From NCBI RefSeq assembly GCF_014337195.1, contig NZ_CP060634.1, positions 186,001-250,000 of the forward strand: a stretch of DNA of 64,000 nt. Reading direction: 5' to 3'. This stretch comes from Qiania dongpingensis. Lineage in GTDB: Bacteria; Bacillota; Clostridia; Lachnospirales; Lachnospiraceae. Positions 8,771 through 17,500 of the stretch are shown one piece after another. Numbering within the stretch: the stretch's first letter is position 1; every line of letters starts with the position of its first letter. The translations under genes and the position numbers were made by a program. The notes under the pieces are model-generated. The model searched no databases. It worked only from the letters and a program-made list of their open reading frames with translations, and was not told the DNA's origin.

Positions 8771-9250
8771 CTTCTTTCCCTCCCGGTTAGCGGCATAGTA
8801 CAGAATATGCGCTCCGGCTTGTACGATATGAGAAATAAGGCTGAAACGGGCGGTTGTTAGCTGCAACCTCACGGGAGTTTCACCCCGGCCCATGCTTATG
8901 GGTGCGCCGCGCAATACTTTGAGGGTGTTCAACGCGGGAGTATCATTGTGCCGCCTTGTATGTCGTCGCCCACAAGCTGCTAAACCTGTTTTACGGCGCG
9001 GTAGTTGTCGCTCGACTTTTCCCCGTAGGGGAAAAGCTGTCATGGCGTACCCGCCGACTGGCTCGGTACAGACGGAATGTACCCGTTTGCCTGTTATGCT
9101 GCGCACCAAAGGCCGCTTTCTTTGTCAAAGAACAATAGGCTTTGTCGGCCTGCAAAAGCACATCAACAGCGGATATGCTTTTGCGGAACGACAAATAGCC
9201 CATAACGGGAAGCGTGGAAAGGGGACACGCTCCCCGCATGGGCTAAAAGA
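8771..9250 (-). other. Gene-free stretch with five hairpins (candidate structured RNA)
   Basis: No convincing gene in about 480 bases lying between DUF6870 and the HTH gene, all read on the minus strand. Hairpins: CCCAT/ATGGG (8889-8902), CTTTTCCCC/GGGGAAAAG (9016-9036, perfect 9 bp), GGTACA/TGTACC (9065-9083), a nested TTTGTC plus GCAAAAGCA stem (9141-9195), and a nested GCCCAT plus AGCGT stem (9198-9243). Function unknown. Confidence 0.4.
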
Positions 9251-9493
9251 TTATCCTACATGAAAAGCAAGGGTGCGGGTAATAAGGCGCACTTGCAGCC
9301 TGTTACGCATTTCCTCGTCCACATAGGAATAGGTATTGCCCGCGTCGTCTTTCAGCGTGCGGGTACAAAGTTTCGCTATGTAACCCTCGTAGTGCTTCAA
9401 GATCGCGCACATGGCGGTTGTGTCGCCGTTTGCCGCTGCGGAAATGACAGGGAACGGCAACAGATTTTCAGACTTCCTAACGGTATTCATCAT
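9251..9493 (-). CDS. HTH_16 domain protein (Tn916 Orf8-like)
   Basis: 80-residue helix-turn-helix protein (FPVISAAANGDTTAMCAILKHYEGYI) of the type found between the sigma factor and integrase in Tn916 relatives. Family knowledge links it to control of excision and transfer. The start at 9493 follows GGAGGG by 8 bases and lies within the end of the sigma-factor gene, so the two are translationally coupled. Confidence 0.8.
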   Translation of the reverse strand: MMNTVRKSENLLPFPVISAAANGDTTAMCAILKHYEGYIAKLCTRTLKDDAGNTYSYVDEEMRNRLQVRLITRTLAFHVG

Positions 9494-9914
9494 CTGCTTT
9501 TCCCTCCAAATACTGTTTGATTTTCGCAAGCGCGGATTTCCTGTGCCGGAAAACCGTCGTGCGTACAACATTCAGCAGTTCGCCAATTTCCGCGTCGCTC
9601 ATATCCAAGAAGTAGGACAAAAGGATAATGTCGCGTTTCCTTTCGGGCAAAGCGTTAAGGGCTTCGGCAAGCAGTTCATTTTTGACGAGTACATCAAAGC
9701 CGGACACTTGAAAACGGAAATAATCGCTTTCGTATTCGTCCGTTGTGAAAAGCTGCGCGAGTTCGCTTTCGCTCAAATCCGAAAAAGTAACTTCGCGTGC
9801 TGCGCGTTTCGCAAGAGTGCGGCGGTGGCTTTTCGCTTCGCCGACCAAAGTTTTCTTTGCTAATGCGTCGTACTGATGTTGTATTCTTTCCTTGTCGGAA
9901 GAAGATAGCTCCAT
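9477..9914 (-). CDS. Sigma-70-like regulator (Tn916 Orf7-like)
   Basis: 145-residue sigma factor-like protein. A divergent N-terminal part is followed by region 4 (ALPERKRDIILLSYFLDMSD, then AEIGELLNVVRTTVFRHRKS) that would contact the -35 element. The ATG at 9914 lies 8 bases after AAGGAGG; a GTG at 9923 overlaps that site and is less likely. In Tn916 the equivalent gene drives expression of the recombination genes. It is followed by the HTH gene with a 17-base overlap. Confidence 0.85.
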   Translation of the reverse strand: MELSSSDKERIQHQYDALAKKTLVGEAKSHRRTLAKRAAREVTFSDLSESELAQLFTTDEYESDYFRFQVSGFDVLVKNELLAEALNALPERKRDIILLSYFLDMSDAEIGELLNVVRTTVFRHRKSALAKIKQYLEGKADDEYR

Positions 9915-10039
9915 AGAGTTCACCTCCTTCCCGCGTGGAGTAGAGGACGGGAGTTAAGGGCTTGTCCTCTCTGCCCCTTTCGCTCCGTACCCGTTCGGGA
10001 GATGGCTCTTGAGTGCGCTTTTCAGAAAAAAGTTGAAAA

Positions 10040-10077
10040 AAGCAAAATGCGCCCGTCCGCAAGACGCGGACGGGCGC
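10040..10077 (-). terminator. Strong hairpin terminator (minus strand)
   Basis: GCGCCCGTCCGC pairs perfectly with GCGGACGGGCGC around a 5-base loop. On the minus strand it is followed by ATTTTGCTTTTTT. It lies just upstream of the sigma-factor gene. Confidence 0.75.
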
Positions 10078-10189
10078 AAAGGAAATGTAAGCAGTAGCTA
10101 AATGTATTGACAGTTCACATTCATAGCCGGAATATCCCGCTTGCGGAGCATAGCTTTTTTTGACCGCAAAGCATTAGGCGGGTTACAGT

Positions 10190-10234
10190 AAATAAAAATG
10201 GACACGGCGATACCTCCCCGATACCGCCGTATCC
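10190..10234 (-). terminator. Candidate terminator (minus strand)
   Basis: A 15-bp stem (10200-10234) whose three non-Watson-Crick positions are G-U wobbles only on the minus strand. It is followed there by ATTTTTATTT, so the minus strand is the likely sense. Confidence 0.55.
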
Positions 10235-10310
10235 TTAAAAAAGGGCGACTTTAATACACTACCCGCAATCCATTCTATAATAGGGAACAGCGGCTTTTGC
10301 GCAATATTAA

Positions 10311-10360
10311 ATAAAAAAGCCGATAACACATAGGTTTTTTGACCTAATGCGTTATCGGCT
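10311..10360 (-). terminator. Terminator after the RlmN/Cfr-like gene
   Basis: AGCCGATAACgCATtAGG pairs with CCTATGTGTTATCGGCT (two wobble positions) and is followed on the minus strand by TTTTTTAT. Confidence 0.8.
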
Positions 10361-10387
10361 CTGCGTCTATGCGTCTGGCACTTTTAA

Positions 10388-11371
10388 TCATTTTTTTTTG
10401 AATTTATTATATGTGTTAGCTAACTGTCCACAAGCCGCGTTAATCTCTCTGCCATGAGAAACTCTCATAGTAACTTCAAGTCCTGCTTGCTCTAATTGAT
10501 GTTTGAATGCAACTATTTCCCGTTTCTGTGGTGCTTTAATTCTTGAATTGCTTGTTGGGTTGTATTGTAACACGTTAATCATAACTTTTTTGCCCCGAAA
10601 CCATTTTGCAAGTTGTCTTACATCTGAGGGCCGGTCATTTATACCCGGTAAAAGCAAATACGCAAAGACAATTTTGCGATTATGCCTTTCAGAATAGGAT
10701 AAGGCTTGCTTAACAACATCTTCAATAGCATATATGCGCATGTGAGGAATAATACGATTTCTTGCAGATTGTGTTGCTGCGTGTAAAGATATTGTCAACT
10801 GAATTTTAAGATGTTCCTCGCGCAATTTTTTTAATTGATCGACCGGACCAACTGTTGATATGGTAATGCCGTCGGTTGGAAAGTTGAGCCCATATCTATC
10901 TCGGAGAATATGGATTGCTTTTATCAAGTTGTCATAATTGAATAAAGGCTCTCCCATACCCATAAAAACGATACGGTTTACTTTTCGACGCAACAATATA
11001 ATCTGTTGTACGATTTCTGACGATGTTAGATTACGAACAAAGCCATTTCGCCCGGACTCACAAAAAATACAACCAACAGGACAACCGACTTGTGTGCTCA
11101 CGCAAACAGTTCCACCATCTCGCCGCTTGATAAAAACCGTTTCAATGTATTTGTTGTCTTTCAGTTCGTAAACATACTTTTCAGTATCACTGCTTTTGCA
11201 AATATTTTTTACCAACATTGATAGATTTTTTTTGCGTGGTAATTGCTTATATAATTCTTCATATAAGGCTTTTGCTTCATTCTCGCCAATAACTTCCGAC
11301 ATTTCTTTGTAAGTAAATCCGTATGGATCATTCCGTACTTCCGCAGGCGTATATTTAGGTAAACGTTTCAT
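10388..11371 (-). CDS. RlmN/Cfr-family radical SAM 23S rRNA methyltransferase
   Basis: 327 residues. Radical SAM cluster motif CPVGCIFC at residues 97-104, GMGEPL, and the resolving cysteine in AACGQL at about residue 314, all required for methyl transfer to the C2/C8 of A2503 in this family. The N-terminal accessory part is shorter than in E. coli RlmN, placing the cluster nearer the Cfr spacing. It is ICE cargo, AT-rich compared with its neighbours, coupled by 17 bases to the KTR gene upstream, and lies behind a leader-peptide attenuator. Whether it modifies C2 (RlmN) or C8 (Cfr, antibiotic resistance) cannot be decided by eye. SD AAAGGA precedes ATG 11371. Confidence 0.85.
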   Translation of the reverse strand: MKRLPKYTPAEVRNDPYGFTYKEMSEVIGENEAKALYEELYKQLPRKKNLSMLVKNICKSSDTEKYVYELKDNKYIETVFIKRRDGGTVCVSTQVGCPVGCIFCESGRNGFVRNLTSSEIVQQIILLRRKVNRIVFMGMGEPLFNYDNLIKAIHILRDRYGLNFPTDGITISTVGPVDQLKKLREEHLKIQLTISLHAATQSARNRIIPHMRIYAIEDVVKQALSYSERHNRKIVFAYLLLPGINDRPSDVRQLAKWFRGKKVMINVLQYNPTSNSRIKAPQKREIVAFKHQLEQAGLEVTMRVSHGREINAACGQLANTYNKFKKK

Positions 11372-11573
11372 TTTTATATCCTTTCTTATAAATAATAAAA
11401 GTTTGTTTTTCTGTATTTTTGATTACAATCTCTAATTTTTCTACATCAATGATATGCGTCAATTTGCATTTAGGGCAGAAAAGAGGAAAATCTTTTAATA
11501 CAGTATTATGAAATACTTGAACTCTCGTCTTTCCGTTACAAATCGGACATTTTATCCAATATTTTTTAAGCAT
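11355..11573 (-). CDS. Cysteine-rich KTR domain protein (Tn916 Orf6-like)
   Basis: 72 residues with two CxxC knuckles (CPICNGKTRVQVFHNT and CPKC), containing the GKTRV core that names the Cys_rich_KTR family. Relatives lie directly downstream of ribosome-protection tet genes in Tn916-type elements. Here it is the first gene behind the leader/attenuator and overlaps the methyltransferase gene. Function unknown; a zinc-ribbon fold is likely. Confidence 0.82.
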   Translation of the reverse strand: MLKKYWIKCPICNGKTRVQVFHNTVLKDFPLFCPKCKLTHIIDVEKLEIVIKNTEKQTFIIYKKGYKNETFT

Positions 11574-11596
11574 TATATTTCACTCGTCCTTTTTAC

Positions 11597-11642
11597 ACAA
11601 AAAATGCAGGTCAATCCTCAACATGAGCATTGACCTGCATTT
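11597..11642 (-). terminator. Second leader terminator upstream of KTR gene
   Basis: A perfect 14-bp stem (AAATGCAGGTCAAT with ATTGACCTGCATTT, 13-base loop) followed on the minus strand by a T-run. It stands 24 bases before the KTR start, so transcripts from the leader promoter must read through it. Confidence 0.85.
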
Positions 11643-11729
11643 ATAATGCACAGAGCAGTACAACAAAACTAAGGCATAGCTTGCACTATATCTATACGTC
11701 GTTAGTTTTTTGTATAGCATCCGCAAAAT

Positions 11730-11784
11730 AAGCATGACAAAAAAGCCCATGTTGAAAATGGGAAAATCCTTTTTTTCAATGCTT
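11730..11784 (-). promoter_or_regulatory. Leader attenuator hairpin
   Basis: The inner stem CCCAT/ATGGG is enclosed by AAAAAAAG/CTTTTTT and an outer AAGCAT/ATGCTT stem (11730-11735 with 11779-11784). The inner stem plus CTTTTTT is a terminator. The outer stem overlaps the leader-peptide stop codon, so a ribosome stalled near the end of the leader would break the hairpin. Confidence 0.7.
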
Positions 11785-11809
11785 ATCTAATACGCATGCT
11801 ATGCAACAT
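11783..11809 (-). CDS. Leader peptide MLHSMRIR
   Basis: An eight-codon reading frame with an excellent ribosome site (AAAAGGAGG at 11818-11826, 8 bases from the ATG). Its size, position and overlap with the attenuator match leader peptides that control ribosome-protection tet genes and other antibiotic-induced genes. Translation of the peptide is inferred. Confidence 0.65.
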   Translation of the reverse strand: MLHSMRIR

Positions 11810-11837
11810 AAACGCCGCCTCCTTTTACATAAATTTT

Positions 11838-11866
11838 ATTTTATCAGAAAATCAGTCTACTGTCAA
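11838..11866 (-). promoter_or_regulatory. Promoter of the leader/KTR/methyltransferase unit
   Basis: TTGACA (11861-11866) and TAAAAT (11838-11843) with a 17-base spacer on the minus strand, about 30 bases before the leader peptide. Confidence 0.8.
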
Positions 11867-11959
11867 TACACAACAGGAAGTATTTAACCTAATGATATGA
11901 ATTGTGTGGACATATCCAAAAAGAAAGGTGAACTGTAAAATGTAACAGGGTGAATGAAA

Positions 11960-12316
11960 ATGGCAAAAAGACCCGTACCATTGTACGACTTTAAGGCTTT
12001 CGGGGCAGCTATAAAAGCCGCGAGAAATGAATACGGCGAGAGCCGCAAAAAGGTAAGCGACGAGTTATATATTTCCCCGCGCTACCTTGCGAATATCGAG
12101 AACAAGGGACAACAGCCGAGTTTACAGGTATTCTATGACCTTGTAACCCGGTATCATATTTCGGTAGATCAATTTTTCTTCCCGAACAGCAATGCGGAGA
12201 AATCCACCGGGCGGCGGCAGCTTGACGCGCTGCTGGACGGTATGAGCGATAAAGGCATACGGATTGTAACCGCAACAGCAAGGGAGATAACGGAAGTCGA
12301 AAAAGCAGAGGATTAA
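11960..12316 (+). CDS. XRE-family regulator (Tn916 Orf9-like)
   Basis: 118-residue DNA-binding protein with an N-terminal Cro/CI helix-turn-helix (GAAIKAARNEYGESRKKVSD then ELYISPRYLANIE). It is divergent from the leader-controlled unit and upstream of the mobilisation genes, the place of the Orf9 repressor in Tn916 relatives. I chose ATG 11960, 9 bases after AGGG; an ATG at 11954 would add two residues. Confidence 0.82.
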   Translation: MAKRPVPLYDFKAFGAAIKAARNEYGESRKKVSDELYISPRYLANIENKGQQPSLQVFYDLVTRYHISVDQFFFPNSNAEKSTGRRQLDALLDGMSDKGIRIVTATAREITEVEKAED

Positions 12317-12432
12317 CCTCACAATATGAGAAATCGGGAGATTGCAGCGCATGGCGGCTGCAATCTTTTTTTGCGTCCAAAATCAAGGGAATGCGCAACA
12401 AATACCGCCTTTCGGTAGGGGTATGGAGTAGA

Positions 12433-12497
12433 TAGCAAGCACAGCAAACGAGTACCCGTTTGCGAAAAATGCTTGTTGGGATAATCCCAAACCCTTA
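12433..12497 (+). repeat. oriT/regulatory-type repeat, copy 1
   Basis: 65 bases containing two palindromes, GCAAACGagtaccCGTTTGC and TTGGGATaATCCCAA. The same sequence recurs in opposite orientation at 17986-18084. Copy 1 ends 20 bases before mobC, the usual place for the transfer origin of this relaxase type; it could equally be a promoter-operator. Confidence 0.65.
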
Positions 12498-12517
12498 TAC
12501 CGAAAGGCGGCGCGGAA

Positions 12518-12847
12518 ATGGAAAACCGAAAGAGAAATATCCAAATGAAGTTTTACGTTACGGAAGAAGAAAAGCGGCTGATCGACGAGAAGATGAAGCA
12601 GCTTCCCATAAAGCAGTATGGGGCATACTTCCGCAAAATGGCGATTGACGGGTATATCCTTGTCATTGACCGAAGCGACACGAAAGCATATATCCGGGAA
12701 CTGCAAGCGGTGAGCCGGAACATCAATCAAATTGCCAAACGCGCCAACGCGACGGGGGCGGTTTACCAGCAGGACATTGAGGATATAAAAAAGGCGGTGG
12801 ACGAGATATGGCGGTTACAAAGACGCACCCTATTAAATCAACCTTAA
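12518..12847 (+). CDS. MobC-type relaxosome accessory protein
   Basis: 109 residues starting MENRKRNIQMKFYVTEEEKR, a ribbon-helix-helix mobilisation protein that helps the relaxase at oriT, with the family motif AVSRNINQIAKRANATG in the C-terminal half. Its last 40 bases overlap the relaxase gene, and the oriT-like repeat lies immediately upstream. Confidence 0.88.
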   Translation: MENRKRNIQMKFYVTEEEKRLIDEKMKQLPIKQYGAYFRKMAIDGYILVIDRSDTKAYIRELQAVSRNINQIAKRANATGAVYQQDIEDIKKAVDEIWRLQRRTLLNQP

Positions 12848-14142
12848 AGGCCGCAATAGACTATATCTTAAATCCCGAAAAGACAGACGGAAAGCTGCTT
12901 GCGTCCTCTTTCGGCTGCGGGCTGGAAACCGCCGATATAGAGTTTGCATGGACGCGGGAAGCTGCCGGAGATCGCGGCACACATTTAGGGCGGCACTTGA
13001 TACAATCCTTTGCGGTAGGCGAAACCACGCCGGAAGAAGCGCACAAAATCGGCATGGAACTTGCGCAAGCGGTGTTAGGCGGCAAGTATGAGTTTGTTTT
13101 GACAACCCACGTCGATAAAGACCATCTGCATAATCACTTGATTTTCAACGCGGTTAGCTTCGTTGACTACAAAAAGTATCATTCCAACAAGCAAAGCTAT
13201 CACGCTATCCGACGCACCAGCGACAGGATATGTAAAGAGCATGGGCTATCCGTCGTCGTGCCGGGACAGGACAAAGGGAAAAGCTATGCGGAATACACCG
13301 CCGAAAAGCAAGGAACAAGCTACAAAGCCAAGCTGAAAACGGCGATAGATACCCTCATTCCCCAAGTCAAAGATTTTGACGAACTGCTGCGCCGTTTGCA
13401 GGAAATGGGGTATGAAATCAAACAGGGCAAATATATTTCTTTCCGCGCTGCCGGACAGGAACGGTTTACCCGCGCAAAGACGCTCGGCGCGGCCTATACG
13501 GAAGAAGCCATAAAGGAGCGTATCAAGGGCGTATATATTGCCAAGTCAAAGCCGCTGCGGGAAGATAAGAAAATCCGGCTTGTCGTCGATATTGAAAACA
13601 GCATTAAAGCCCAACAATCGGCGGGCTATGAACGGTGGGCGAAAATCCATAATCTGAAACAGGCTGCAAAAAGCATGAACTTCTTGACCGAAAACAAGAT
13701 TGAATATTACAGCGACCTCGAAAGCAAAATCGCGGATATTATGACCGCCCATGACGCGGCGGCAAGGGCGGTTAAGGAAGTGGAACAGCGTATGTCCGAT
13801 TTATCGCTGCTTATCAAGCACACCACCACATACCGACAATTAAAACCGATTTACGAGGAATACAAGAAATCGCGGGACAAGGAAAAGTATCTGCGGGGGC
13901 ATGAAAGCGAAATTATCCTGTTTGAAGCTGCGGCAAGGGCACTCCGGGAAATGCAGATAAAGAAGCTGCCCGATCTCGCCGCGCTGCGCAAGGAGTATAG
14001 CGGCTTAAACGACAGGAAAAGCAAATTGTATGAGGATTACCGCCAAGCGAAAAAGCAAATGCAGGAGTACGGCGTTGTCAAAAAGAACGTCGATAGTATT
14101 CTTTACCCGTCCCAAAGCAAGGCGCGGGAGCAGGAGCGATAA
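12808..14142 (+). CDS. Relaxase / mobilisation nuclease (MobA/VirD2 family)
   Basis: 444 residues. The N-terminal relaxase domain carries the metal-binding HVDKDHLHNHLIFN (HxDxxHxHN) at about residue 100, and the C-terminal half is a long Lys/Glu-rich helical region. It nicks oriT and pilots the ICE strand into the recipient. It starts inside mobC (40-base overlap), indicating coupled translation. Confidence 0.93.
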   Translation: MAVTKTHPIKSTLKAAIDYILNPEKTDGKLLASSFGCGLETADIEFAWTREAAGDRGTHLGRHLIQSFAVGETTPEEAHKIGMELAQAVLGGKYEFVLTTHVDKDHLHNHLIFNAVSFVDYKKYHSNKQSYHAIRRTSDRICKEHGLSVVVPGQDKGKSYAEYTAEKQGTSYKAKLKTAIDTLIPQVKDFDELLRRLQEMGYEIKQGKYISFRAAGQERFTRAKTLGAAYTEEAIKERIKGVYIAKSKPLREDKKIRLVVDIENSIKAQQSAGYERWAKIHNLKQAAKSMNFLTENKIEYYSDLESKIADIMTAHDAAARAVKEVEQRMSDLSLLIKHTTTYRQLKPIYEEYKKSRDKEKYLRGHESEIILFEAAARALREMQIKKLPDLAALRKEYSGLNDRKSKLYEDYRQAKKQMQEYGVVKKNVDSILYPSQSKAREQER

Positions 14143-14292
14143 GGCGCAAAACAAGGGGTAGCAAGTGGAACATTAAGGGCTGAAAACGCCTGTGTTTCTG
14201 CGGCTTCCAGCGCGGGGAAACGGCATAGACGATACTTTATATTCAAACCCGCAAAAACAGCTTTCTAATTGTCCACGCAAGGACAAAAAAAG

Positions 14293-14333
14293 AACAGGGG
14301 CGCGGTGCCGGAAATCGGCAACCGCGCCCCTGT
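14293..14333. terminator. Bidirectional terminator between relaxase and TTRAP genes
   Basis: AACAGGGGCGCGGT pairs with ACCGCGCCCCTGTT, with an inner GCCG/CGGC extension; T-rich or A-rich tracts lie on both sides. It lies between convergent genes. Confidence 0.85.
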
Positions 14334-14343
14334 TTTCTATGGG

Positions 14344-14553
14344 CTATTCCTCGTCGGTCAAGATAAACTCCCGTTCGGAAAACTCGCTGTCCGTCATGGC
14401 TTGCAGCTTTTTCACCGCTGCGGCGGCAAGCTGGCGCATATCCTCGTCCATATAGGGCATGGCGGCAAGGATATTTTCAAGCGTTGTTTCCCGGCTGTCC
14501 TCGGCGTAAATCGCAATTATGTTTTCTTCCTCAATGGTAAAGCGGATATTCAT
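14344..14553 (-). CDS. Transposon-transfer assisting protein (TTRAP family)
   Basis: 69-residue acidic protein (MNIRFTIEEENIIAIYAEDS, then TLENILAAMPYMDEDM) recognised as the TTRAP family of Tn1549-like elements. Its molecular role is unknown. It lies 4 bases downstream of the large anti-restriction gene, in the same operon. Confidence 0.75.
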   Translation of the reverse strand: MNIRFTIEEENIIAIYAEDSRETTLENILAAMPYMDEDMRQLAAAAVKKLQAMTDSEFSEREFILTDEE

Positions 14554-14557
14554 ACTA

Positions 14558-17500
14558 TCAAACCTCCAAATCCTTTTTCTGCTCTTTCTGCTTGTCTTTC
14601 GGCTGCTGCGCCGCCTGTTTCTTGTACTCGTCCAGCTTCTTCAAAATGGACGGTTTCTTTTGCGGCTGCTCCCGTTTCTCGGCTTTTACCGCTTTCGCAA
14701 GGTCGGTAACGGAAATCGCTTCGCCCGCCTTTGCCCGCTGCTCCAAATCCGCGACGGTGGGCGTTTGCGGCGTATTATTGATAATCCCGTCAAAGTTGTT
14801 GTCGTTCTGCTCTACAATGTCCTCAACGTGCTTTAAGGGATTATCCCGCTGCGGCTGCTCGGCGGCTATGGCATAAGCCTGTGTGCCATTTCCCATAATG
14901 AGATACTTCCCGTCCTCCGACGCATGATGAAAACCAAAGCCCGCCGCTTCGATCTGTTCGCGGCTCATGTCGGTAATGTAAAAGTTCCCTCGCGGCGTTC
15001 TGACGGTTTCGCCCGTCATAAGGCTTTCGGGGGTCGCTTCCGGCTGCTGCTTTTCAAGCTGCCCGCCCTTGTAGGAATACCCTTGCGCCGCGATTGCTTC
15101 AAGGGTCTTGCCCGTAACGTCGCCATAAATCCGCTTGTCTGCGTCTACAAGCAGTTGCAGCGTATCTTTTACGGTATCGGATAGGGCTTGCTGCTGTTCG
15201 GGAGATAGCTTATCAAATACGGGGGTCTGCTGCGCTTGCTCCTGTAAAAACTCCGGCACCTGCTGAAAACCTATGCTGTCTACATAATGGGCGGTGTTCT
15301 CGCCGTTCTGATGAAGCACAACAATGTCGGAAACGGAAAGGCTATGCCCCTTGAAGTCGGCGGGGCGGTCGATATTAAACTTTTCCCAAATGCCGCCAAG
15401 CGTCATATCCTTTGTAAGCGGTGCGGTATAGACGAGTTCATAATTTGCCCGGTCAACGAAATGCCCCGTTGCTTGCAGACGGTCGAAAGGCTCAAAGCGC
15501 AAATCCATAGTTTCCTCTCTGCGGGCTAACTGATAAATCCCGTAGCTGTCCTCCTTGCCGTTGAGAAGCAAGGTTTCTTTTGTTTTCGCTTCCTGCTCCT
15601 GCTCGGCTTGCCGCTGCTGCTGCAATTCGGTAAAATGCCCCTCGATCTCGGTAATGAGTTCCTTTGCGGTTGCCTGTATCGTTTCAAGGGACGCTTTTAA
15701 TTCGGTCATTTCCTTGCCGCTGCTCCACCCGGCAACATACCCGAAAGAGTAATCCGACGTATCAAGCCCGAAATGCTGACACACCGTATAGGCAACGCTT
15801 TCAGCCTGTACCTCGCGGCTGCGGCGGTCAACGCGGTTTTGTTCCTCCAGCGGGGCGTTTAAGTCCACGTCATGCAGCTTCGCATGGGCGATTTCGTGAA
15901 TGGCGGTCTTAACCGCTTGCAGCTCGCTCACACCCTCTTTGATAGCAATTCGCTTATCGGTCAAACTGAAATATCCGTTTGCGCCGTTTGTGATCTGCTC
16001 AAAAGCAATCGGAACGGGGGACGCTTTTTCAAGGGCAGCGAAAAAGTCCTCGTACTGTTCCACATCGGCAAGCAGCGGTTTGACGGAGAGGTCGGGAAAC
16101 TCCTTGCCCTCGGTCTGCGAAATGTCAAAGACGGTTACAACCTTAAAGGCGGGAACGGTAACTTCCTTTTCTTCCTTAACCGTCTTTCCCTCGCTGTCAA
16201 GTATGGGCTTTCTTGTGTCGGGGTCGATTTTATCCACCAGCTTTTTTACCTTGTAAGGTGCGGGGGCAAAGATTTTAATACCTTTCTCGCCGCTTTTCAC
16301 ATGGCGGTCAAACTCTTTCTGCCATTGTGAATAGCCCTTTACCAAATTGCCGCCCTGCATGGCGATTAGGATAGTGTTATTCAAGCTGTAATCGTGAAAC
16401 TTTGACATAGCCGTTAAAAACTCTTTGTAGCGGTCGCTGTCAAAAATCGCTTGTATGCCCTGTTCCAGACGGGCGGTGATCTCCTTTACCTTGTCGCCGG
16501 GTTTTTCAGAAGAAAGGATAATCGGCACGACGGGGCGGGGCTGCTGCGGCTCTGCGGTCTGTACGGCTGCTTGCTGCGTTTCGGCTGCGTCCATATAGGC
16601 TTTGTCCTGTTCGCCGCGCTCCGGCTGCGGGTAACTCATAATGCGGTATTCCTCCGGCACTTCGCGCCCCTCAAACTGCCGTTCCCACTCGTCGCCGCTT
16701 TCCACGATATAGCCGTATTCGGTAAACGCGCCTTTTTCCTGCGCGGCGGCGTTCCTGCCAAAAGTAGTAAGGTCAATGCCGCCTTTCCATTCTTCGGGCA
16801 TTTGTACCATGCCGGATTGATTTAAGTAATAGTCGCCCAAATCGCGGTAGGTATGTACTTCGGGAATATGGACGTAAAAATCCACGTTGTAGGTGAAGTC
16901 AATTACCTGTCCGATATTTGCAAGCCCGTTTTTCTGCTGCAAAGCTGCGTTCAGCTTGCCAACCTCGGCGGGGTCAAGCTGTTCGAGCCGCGCCGCAAGA
17001 AAATTGAGTTCGTCCACGTCGGCGGCGCATACCATTTCATAAGGCAAAGCAATATGTTTCTCTGGGTCGTCGGAATAGCCGCGAATGGAAAAATCCTGCG
17101 GGTTATCGGCGGTAATGCCGACGCTCTGCATAGCGGTCTGTAACTGCTCCTTTGTGGCGGGCATATCCAGCCAATAACCGCCGGGGTCGCCCGCTTCAAA
17201 ACGGCTGCGGTTGCCAATCATAATAGAAAACTGTTCGCTCATGTGTTCACGCTCCTTTTGCTGCCCGGTAGTTTCGGGGATAGCTGCCGCCTGTGGCTGC
17301 TGCTGCGGGGGTTCCTCACCCTCAATGGTATAGCCCGGTAAAAGCATACCGTTTACTTTGAAATGCTCGGCGTACTCCTGCGGGATAGGCGGGGAGATTT
17401 CCGTAAACAGACGGTCGTATGCTTTGATACGTCCATTCAGATACTTTTCCATAGCCGCCTTATCGGAAAAAACCTTTCTGTCCTGTCCGGCAATCTTCGC

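Follow-up and report, generated by a model that had tools for sequence, protein, structure and literature searches.

A probable macrolide-responsive attenuator of the mef/msr type before a KTR-mrmA operon in Qiania dongpingensis

In the window (the whole 64,000-nucleotide stretch of Qiania dongpingensis DNA that was analysed), the segment between positions 10388 and 11866 is probably a transcription attenuator of the mef/msr kind that responds to macrolides, placed on the minus strand before an operon that consists of a KTR gene and the methyltransferase gene mrmA and is carried by a conjugative-type mobile element. The likely inducer is a 14- or 15-membered macrolide. The device is of a known kind, probably a macrolide attenuator, and its placement before mrmA is new as far as the literature searched goes, in which no description of a macrolide-type leader before mrmA was found; in the main text of the paper that describes mrmA (PMC11983580), the strings ‘leader', ‘attenuat-' and ‘regulat-' have 0 occurrences.

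The mechanism proposed here would work as follows. With the drug absent, ribosomes would complete the leader peptide MLHSMRIR and leave, hairpin 1 would close, and RNA polymerase would stop at about 11604-11599. With a 14- or 15-membered macrolide in the tunnel, the ribosome would stall at the terminal R-I-R and hold the 5′ arm of hairpin 1, which would free the 3′ arm to capture the emerging 5′ arm and loop of the terminator, and transcription would continue into KTR and mrmA. MrmA would then modify 23S rRNA, making the ribosomes resistant to erythromycin and streptogramin B. Macrolide induction through related leaders is published, and the specificities agree, because mef(E) answers 14- and 15-membered but not 16-membered macrolides (PMC4335068) and MrmA gives resistance to erythromycin but not to tylosin. 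The position of mrmA behind a mef-type leader predicts inducible resistance in which the inducer and the substrate drug are identical, and uninduced mrmA carriers may test less resistant than their potential.

Anatomy of the leader

In the 5′ to 3′ order of the minus strand, the segment comprises a promoter-like site, AGGAGG, the frame MLHSMRIR*, hairpin 1, a middle hairpin, the terminator, the KTR gene and the radical-SAM gene. The features are:

11838-11866, minus strand: promoter-like site, TTGACA-17-TAAAAT, in which TG precedes the -10 (motif scan, 11 of 12 matches)
11818-11823, minus strand: AGGAGG, the ribosome site of the leader peptide, 8 nt ahead of the ATG at 11809 (sequence)
11783-11809, minus strand: leader frame MLHSMRIR*, 8 codons, with a terminal R-x-R motif of the macrolide-arrest type (sequence and the peptide table of PMC4335068)
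about 11714-11802, minus strand: hairpin 1, over the leader stop codon (RNA folding)
11745-11758, minus strand: predicted antiterminator arm UUUUCAACAUGGGC, made up of the hairpin 1 loop and the inner arm on its 3′ side (pairing and cotranscriptional-length folding)
11615-11628, minus strand: predicted antiterminator partner GCUCAUGUUGAGGA, within the terminator hairpin (pairing analysis)
11599-11640, minus strand: intrinsic terminator with an unbroken 14-bp stem and a T-run, 25 nt ahead of the KTR start (folding)
11597-11802, minus strand: match to Rfam family RF02862 (sRNA_1300), 53.0 bits against a cut-off of 48.8
11355-11573, minus strand: Cys_rich_KTR protein, 72 aa (PF14205, 75.2 bits against a cut-off of 25.5)
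10388-11371, minus strand: mrmA or a near-identical allele, a radical-SAM methyltransferase of the RlmN/Cfr superfamily, 327 aa (profiles, tree and primer match)

The first-pass annotation had named a promoter, an 8-codon leader with AGGAGG, a hairpin that overlaps the stop codon, a 14-bp terminator, KTR and a methyltransferase, and all of these are present on the minus strand; its proposal that they form a candidate inducible resistance unit, with an attenuator governed by drug-stalled ribosomes before the two genes, is backed by the sequence and by folding. The promoter scan is weak on its own because the 5 kb scanned contain 12 sites of equal grade, with 8.6 expected. The leader RNA folds at -85 kcal/mol (z -6.7), and none of 200 shuffles is equally stable. 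The terminator hairpin extends from 11640 to 11604 and the T-run from 11604 to 11599, with 2 of the 14 stem pairs using the T-run; the terminator scan listed a small hairpin at 11762-11746 and missed the 14-bp one. Hairpin 1 does overlap the leader stop codon, as first described, but its T-run is mostly base-paired within its own stem in the predicted fold. Rather than a terminator, it is better read as a cover that hides the antiterminator arm as long as the leader holds no ribosome, the same role as that of stem R1/R2 in mef(E).

The mef(E)/mel (msr(D)) attenuator resembles the window leader in its 8-codon peptide ending in M-R-x-R, the stem over the leader end, the middle stem and the terminator, and Mef loci and the window leader alike match RF02862. 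The mef(E)/mel leader controls efflux and ABC-F genes, whereas the window leader would control KTR-mrmA. The window also differs in having no long inverted repeat and in its predicted antiterminator, which draws on the arm of hairpin 1 and the loop of the terminator and is unfavoured at full-length equilibrium. In the leader alignment, the middle part of the window leader is 11 nt shorter than in loci L001 and L002; in mef(E), partial deletion of the R3/R4 stem, the counterpart of this part, abolished expression (PMC4335068).

On the plus strand, an opposite promoter-like site (TCAACA-18-TATAAT, 11618-11647) lies inside the leader and faces back across it; it may be due to chance.

Identity of the methyltransferase gene

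Both of the primers with which mrmA was cloned in the published work have annealing parts that are found unchanged in the window, at 11368-11349 and 10410-10388, and these sites span codon 2 onward at the 5′ end and run through the stop codon at the 3′ end. Because both primers match the gene ends exactly, the gene is taken as mrmA or a near-identical allele, an identification that rests on the two primer sites at its ends. The forward site is found in 24 of the 191 loci compared, none of which is of the type with 86% identity. The unit had been described at first as lacking a known resistance gene, a statement overtaken by the publication in 2025 of MrmA from the Clostridioides difficile elements Tn6105, Tn6110 and Tn7806 (PMC11983580). 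As reported there, MrmA raises the MIC of erythromycin 512-fold and that of streptogramin B 4-fold in efflux-deficient Escherichia coli, with tylosin, clindamycin, tiamulin, chloramphenicol and linezolid given as unchanged; C. difficile carriers withstand erythromycin above 256 mg/L, and the authors suspect an adenine other than A2503 as the target. The C. difficile protein and the window protein share the exact primer sites, are placed by the published study and by this one in a lineage distinct from RlmN and Cfr, and are each extra to a housekeeping RlmN; the host and the element differ.

Profile searches place the window protein below the cut-offs of both known groups, at 277.6 bits against 290 for the RlmN model TIGR00048 and at 199.5 against 530, 194.9 against 468 and 192.9 against 550 bits for the Cfr models. 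In a 63-row quick tree built without bootstrap, it falls in a 12-row clade (SH-aLRT 99), and the 4 Cfr rows form a separate clade (SH-aLRT 100). The window protein shares with the Cfr family the radical-SAM superfamily and the catalytic residues, but scores far below the cut-offs and belongs to a separate clade; assignment to Cfr was rejected by the cut-offs and the tree. The clade is also apart from the housekeeping RlmN of the carriers, and assignment to the latter was rejected since a second gene of the RlmN type, with 34-41% identity to the window protein, is present in all of the 22 carrier genomes. Among six further genomes, four have two RlmN-type genes and two have one (MAGs of Chlamydiae). 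The tree places a plasmid gene of Rhodobacter next to the window clade.

In the alignment, the window protein keeps the catalytic residues C97, C101 and C104 of the CX3CX2C motif, together with C314, C90 and E77. Ahead of the conserved Lys65 it lacks 29 residues relative to RlmN of E. coli. The nearest structures to the predicted model (pLDDT 92) are of the RlmN type, which occupy ranks 1-9 with TM 0.81-0.86, compared with 0.66 for Cfr. As to the target position, C2 or C8, the 8 columns that separate 33 RlmN-like from 4 Cfr rows are divided: the clade is RlmN-like in 2, Cfr-like in 2 and neither in 4.

The Rhodobacter plasmid gene (L018:4113-10454), sister to the MrmA clade and 49% identical to MrmA, lies in a floR-tet(G) region.

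Conservation of the leader

Among 299 genomes of one family, 18 mrmA-type genes at least 85% identical are present in 16 genomes, and the 24-base leader motif occurs 17 times in the same 16 genomes. All 17 motifs lie 317-417 nt upstream of an mrmA-type gene on the same strand, and the leader accompanies 17 of the 18 close copies, the exception being the second copy in genome G442 (L133); the copies are related by descent, so that these counts are not independent. Loss of conservation among relatives had been set in advance as the result that would speak against the attenuator, and the leader came through this comparison. The motif can be used to find close mrmA units (16 of the 299 genomes).

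The copies without a leader are L133 and L012; the latter (L012:4401-4835) lies behind a shortened frame of an ACI-type class A beta-lactamase.

In the copies of the 86% type, two codons of the leader are changed, both synonymously, and the peptide is kept; at L111, Ser4 is kept despite the change from AGC to TCT. The peptide reads MLHSIRIRK at L023, and the motif is lost in two relatives, L111 (MLHSIRIWK) and L160 (MFSYNYI).

At L159 (1498-1727), the middle of the terminator hairpin runs in the opposite orientation to that in the other aligned copies, as if flipped between its own arms, and the terminator is retained.

The predicted switch

In the window, UUUUCAACAUGGGC of hairpin 1 can pair with GCUCAUGUUGAGGA of the terminator at -20.1 kcal/mol, flanks included, and none of 1000 arm shuffles is equally stable; the corresponding numbers per 1000 are 0 for L004, 1 for L111, 22 for L023 and 66 for L160, the arm of which was mis-picked by the script. 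When arms were exchanged among 14 leaders (5 methyltransferase, 6 mef and 3 ABC-F), the own arms averaged -17.1 and the exchanged arms -13.3, and the own total was reached in none of 20,000 permutations. Within the 5 methyltransferase leaders, one with a mis-picked arm (L160), own-arm pairing ranks 4 of 120. RNAalifold, applied to the alignment of methyltransferase leaders only (A2), yields a covariation term of -0.13 kcal/mol, that is, almost none, with changes on both sides at 5 of 44 pairs; a further alignment (A4) omits L110 and L158 and includes L160.

Equilibrium folding decides little as the sole test because the window type does not switch and four leaders are nearly devoid of a terminator. 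In L110, a row of the window type, the terminator has a pair probability of 0.94-0.96 in all four states, and L104, L150, L106 and L107 form almost no terminator in any state (the held states of L106 were cut from another frame). Partly transcribed RNA was therefore folded instead, with the ribosome free or held, for 9 leaders. In the window, with the ribosome free, hairpin 1 forms and the antiterminator is absent; with the leader masked by a held ribosome as far as 9 or 12 nt beyond the stop codon, 12 antiterminator pairs are present until half of the 3′ arm of the terminator has emerged, a result equalled by 1 of 200 arm shuffles. The window, the like copy L110 and L004 of the 86% type form the antiterminator with a held ribosome only; in 2 of the 9 leaders, L023 and L107, it also forms without one at some lengths.

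In full-length RNA with the ribosome held, the terminator prevails in the window, L110, L004 and mostly in L023, and it does not prevail in L111, three mef leaders and L107. Folding, proposed as a check by the first-pass annotation, predicts a switch in the partly transcribed window RNA but not at full-length equilibrium. Because the terminator prevails there, any control in the window type would need to act kinetically, and this is what we infer.

The preference of L110 for the terminator in each equilibrium state could also be taken to mean that the leader is degenerate, with mrmA expressed at a low constant level through read-through or from another promoter and the drug response gone. The disappearance, in the leaders of both the window type and the 86% type, of the long inverted repeat that mef-type leaders have (leader alignment and folding), the shortened middle part, and the retention of the gene without a leader at L012 and L133 favour this reading as well. 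It is nevertheless unlikely, given that the peptide is conserved through synonymous changes, that pairing among the 14 leaders is stronger between arms of one leader than between exchanged ones and that the leader is kept in nearly all close copies, all of which argue for a working attenuator.

RNA family, leader peptide and the inducing drug

The scan of the whole window with the Rfam covariance models returned 3 matches above the cut-off, one of them at the mrmA leader. The paper that names sRNA_1300 locates the RNA in a 60-kb genomic island of Enterococcus faecium, and macrolides are not mentioned in the part of it that bears on this RNA (PMC5593968). In searches of two partly overlapping samples, 299 genomes from the phylum and 391 from the class, RF02862 is found above the cut-off at 19 distinct sites (8 in the phylum sample, 12 in the class sample, 1 common to both). 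The next long frame is Mef-like at 12 of these sites, an ABC-F (Msr-like) gene at 2 and an mrmA-type gene at 5. The gene names behind the mef and ABC-F leaders were checked against NCBIfam for 5 of the 14 loci and otherwise come from the frames read: L104 is above the Mef(A) cut-off, L158 is below it (634.9 against 675), L108 is only distantly Mef-like, and L106 and L107, both incomplete loci, are above the cut-off for ABC-F ribosomal protection and below that for Msr (654.1 and 666.7 against 680).

Among the weaker RF02862 sites, L111, L159 and L160 precede mrmA-type genes and L112 an ABC-F gene; L163 lies inside a transporter-like frame, L161 and L162 have neither gene type downstream, and at L114, L164 and L165 the model aligns in part only and to the opposite strand. 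The family is absent from all 14 control genomes. Four cfr loci, two of them with less than 200 nt of upstream sequence, gave no RF02862 match at E 0.01.

The leader peptide ends in R/K-x-R/K, as the macrolide attenuator class requires, and this is described as the macrolide-arrest motif (PMC10314930). Table 3 of PMC4335068 gives MTASMRLR for mef and MTHSMRLR for erm(D), and the same paper names MRLR as the place where ribosomes stall on erm(K); MLHSMRIR is identical to the erm(D) peptide in 6 of 8 residues. No mention of MLHSMRIR itself was found in the literature searched. Among the 7 distinct short frames behind AGGAGG in all sequence compared, 4 end in R-x-R, and all 4 are such leaders; this number is too small for an estimate of how often the ending arises by chance.

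An attenuator of this layout might answer another ribosome drug, be it a lincosamide, a phenicol, a 16-membered macrolide or, on the model of tet(M) and tet(O), a tetracycline. The tet(M) and tet(O) leaders are similarly arranged: inverted repeats cover the end of a short peptide (MRQGILK, by eye), a second terminator follows, and the unit includes a KTR gene. An R-x-R end, moreover, does not always mean a response to erythromycin: the RYR leader of tlrB (yxjB, RlmAII) of Bacillus subtilis answers tylosin instead (PMC6851288). Like the window, tlrB combines a 23S rRNA methyltransferase gene with a macrolide-stalled R-x-R leader, but it differs in its target, G748, in its specificity for tylosin rather than erythromycin, and in also using translation attenuation and NusG pausing (PMC6851288). 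Against another drug stand the arrest motif of the peptide, the macrolide-type genes or mrmA that follow the above-cut-off RF02862 sites, and the RNA family: the tet(M) loci L101 and L103 match RF02864, for which the Rfam scan found no match in the window. The tet leaders also have a different peptide, and their KTR gene follows the tet gene rather than preceding the effector gene. Another inducer is thus quite improbable, and the ribosome-protection tet genes, initially offered as the nearest model, were rejected as such on the difference in RNA family.

With a macrolide as the probable inducer, a wider reading can be put forward tentatively. One macrolide-sensing RNA module may have been passed among chemically unrelated genes (an efflux pump, an ABC-F protein and a radical-SAM methyltransferase), and mrmA may form a feedback loop with it: MrmA would alter a tunnel nucleotide other than A2503, the modified ribosomes would stop stalling on MLHSMRIR, and the operon would turn itself off. 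If this holds, MrmA would represent a third functional class of the RlmN/Cfr superfamily.

The KTR gene, neighbouring genes and the mobile element

Copies that are otherwise alike have a KTR frame of 61 aa; that of the window is 11 codons longer and reaches into the start of mrmA at 11355-11371, an overlap that could couple the translation of both genes. That the unit serves the KTR protein, with the methyltransferase as a passenger, is very improbable: KTR is the first gene of the unit and KTR genes also stand beside tet(M) and tet(O), but the leader of L111 (42.3 bits, below the cut-off) runs straight into the methyltransferase with KTR absent, the methyltransferase of L184 follows a Mef-like gene, and MrmA alone confers erythromycin resistance in E. 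coli (PMC11983580).

KTR genes lie directly after tet(M) and tet(O) at L101:2837-5174, L102:2030-4174 and L103:1837-4174. KTR proteins may play a part in drug-induced units.

Several more distant members of the MrmA clade likewise adjoin genes connected with translation drugs. L184, one of them, has a leader that is mef-like by eye and gives no RF02862 match at E 0.01. On a Paraclostridium plasmid (L016:180-7891), a short leader frame is followed by a Mef-like transporter gene (scoring below the cut-offs), HflX, the methyltransferase gene of the MrmA clade, a hypothetical gene and tetB(P). The clade member at L185 precedes an RlmA-like methyltransferase, and at L014, L019 and L024 the frames read include no neighbour related to translation drugs.

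The region 8837-15365 of the window shares 97% identity with the record of a Subdoligranulum plasmid (L020), over an extent bounded by the L020 locus compared. The element block contains genes for MobC, a relaxase, an ArdA-type protein, a sigma-region-4 protein, an HTH_16 protein and a recombinase that weakly resembles those of the Ccr group; further along come genes for a topoisomerase, an NlpC/P60 protein and a VirD4-type protein. The element is regarded as conjugative-type because of MobC, the relaxase, the VirD4-type gene and their companions.

A match to the Rfam pemK RNA (49 bits against a cut-off of 34.8) lies at 8869-8949 on the minus strand of the window, immediately upstream of the element's serine-recombinase side.
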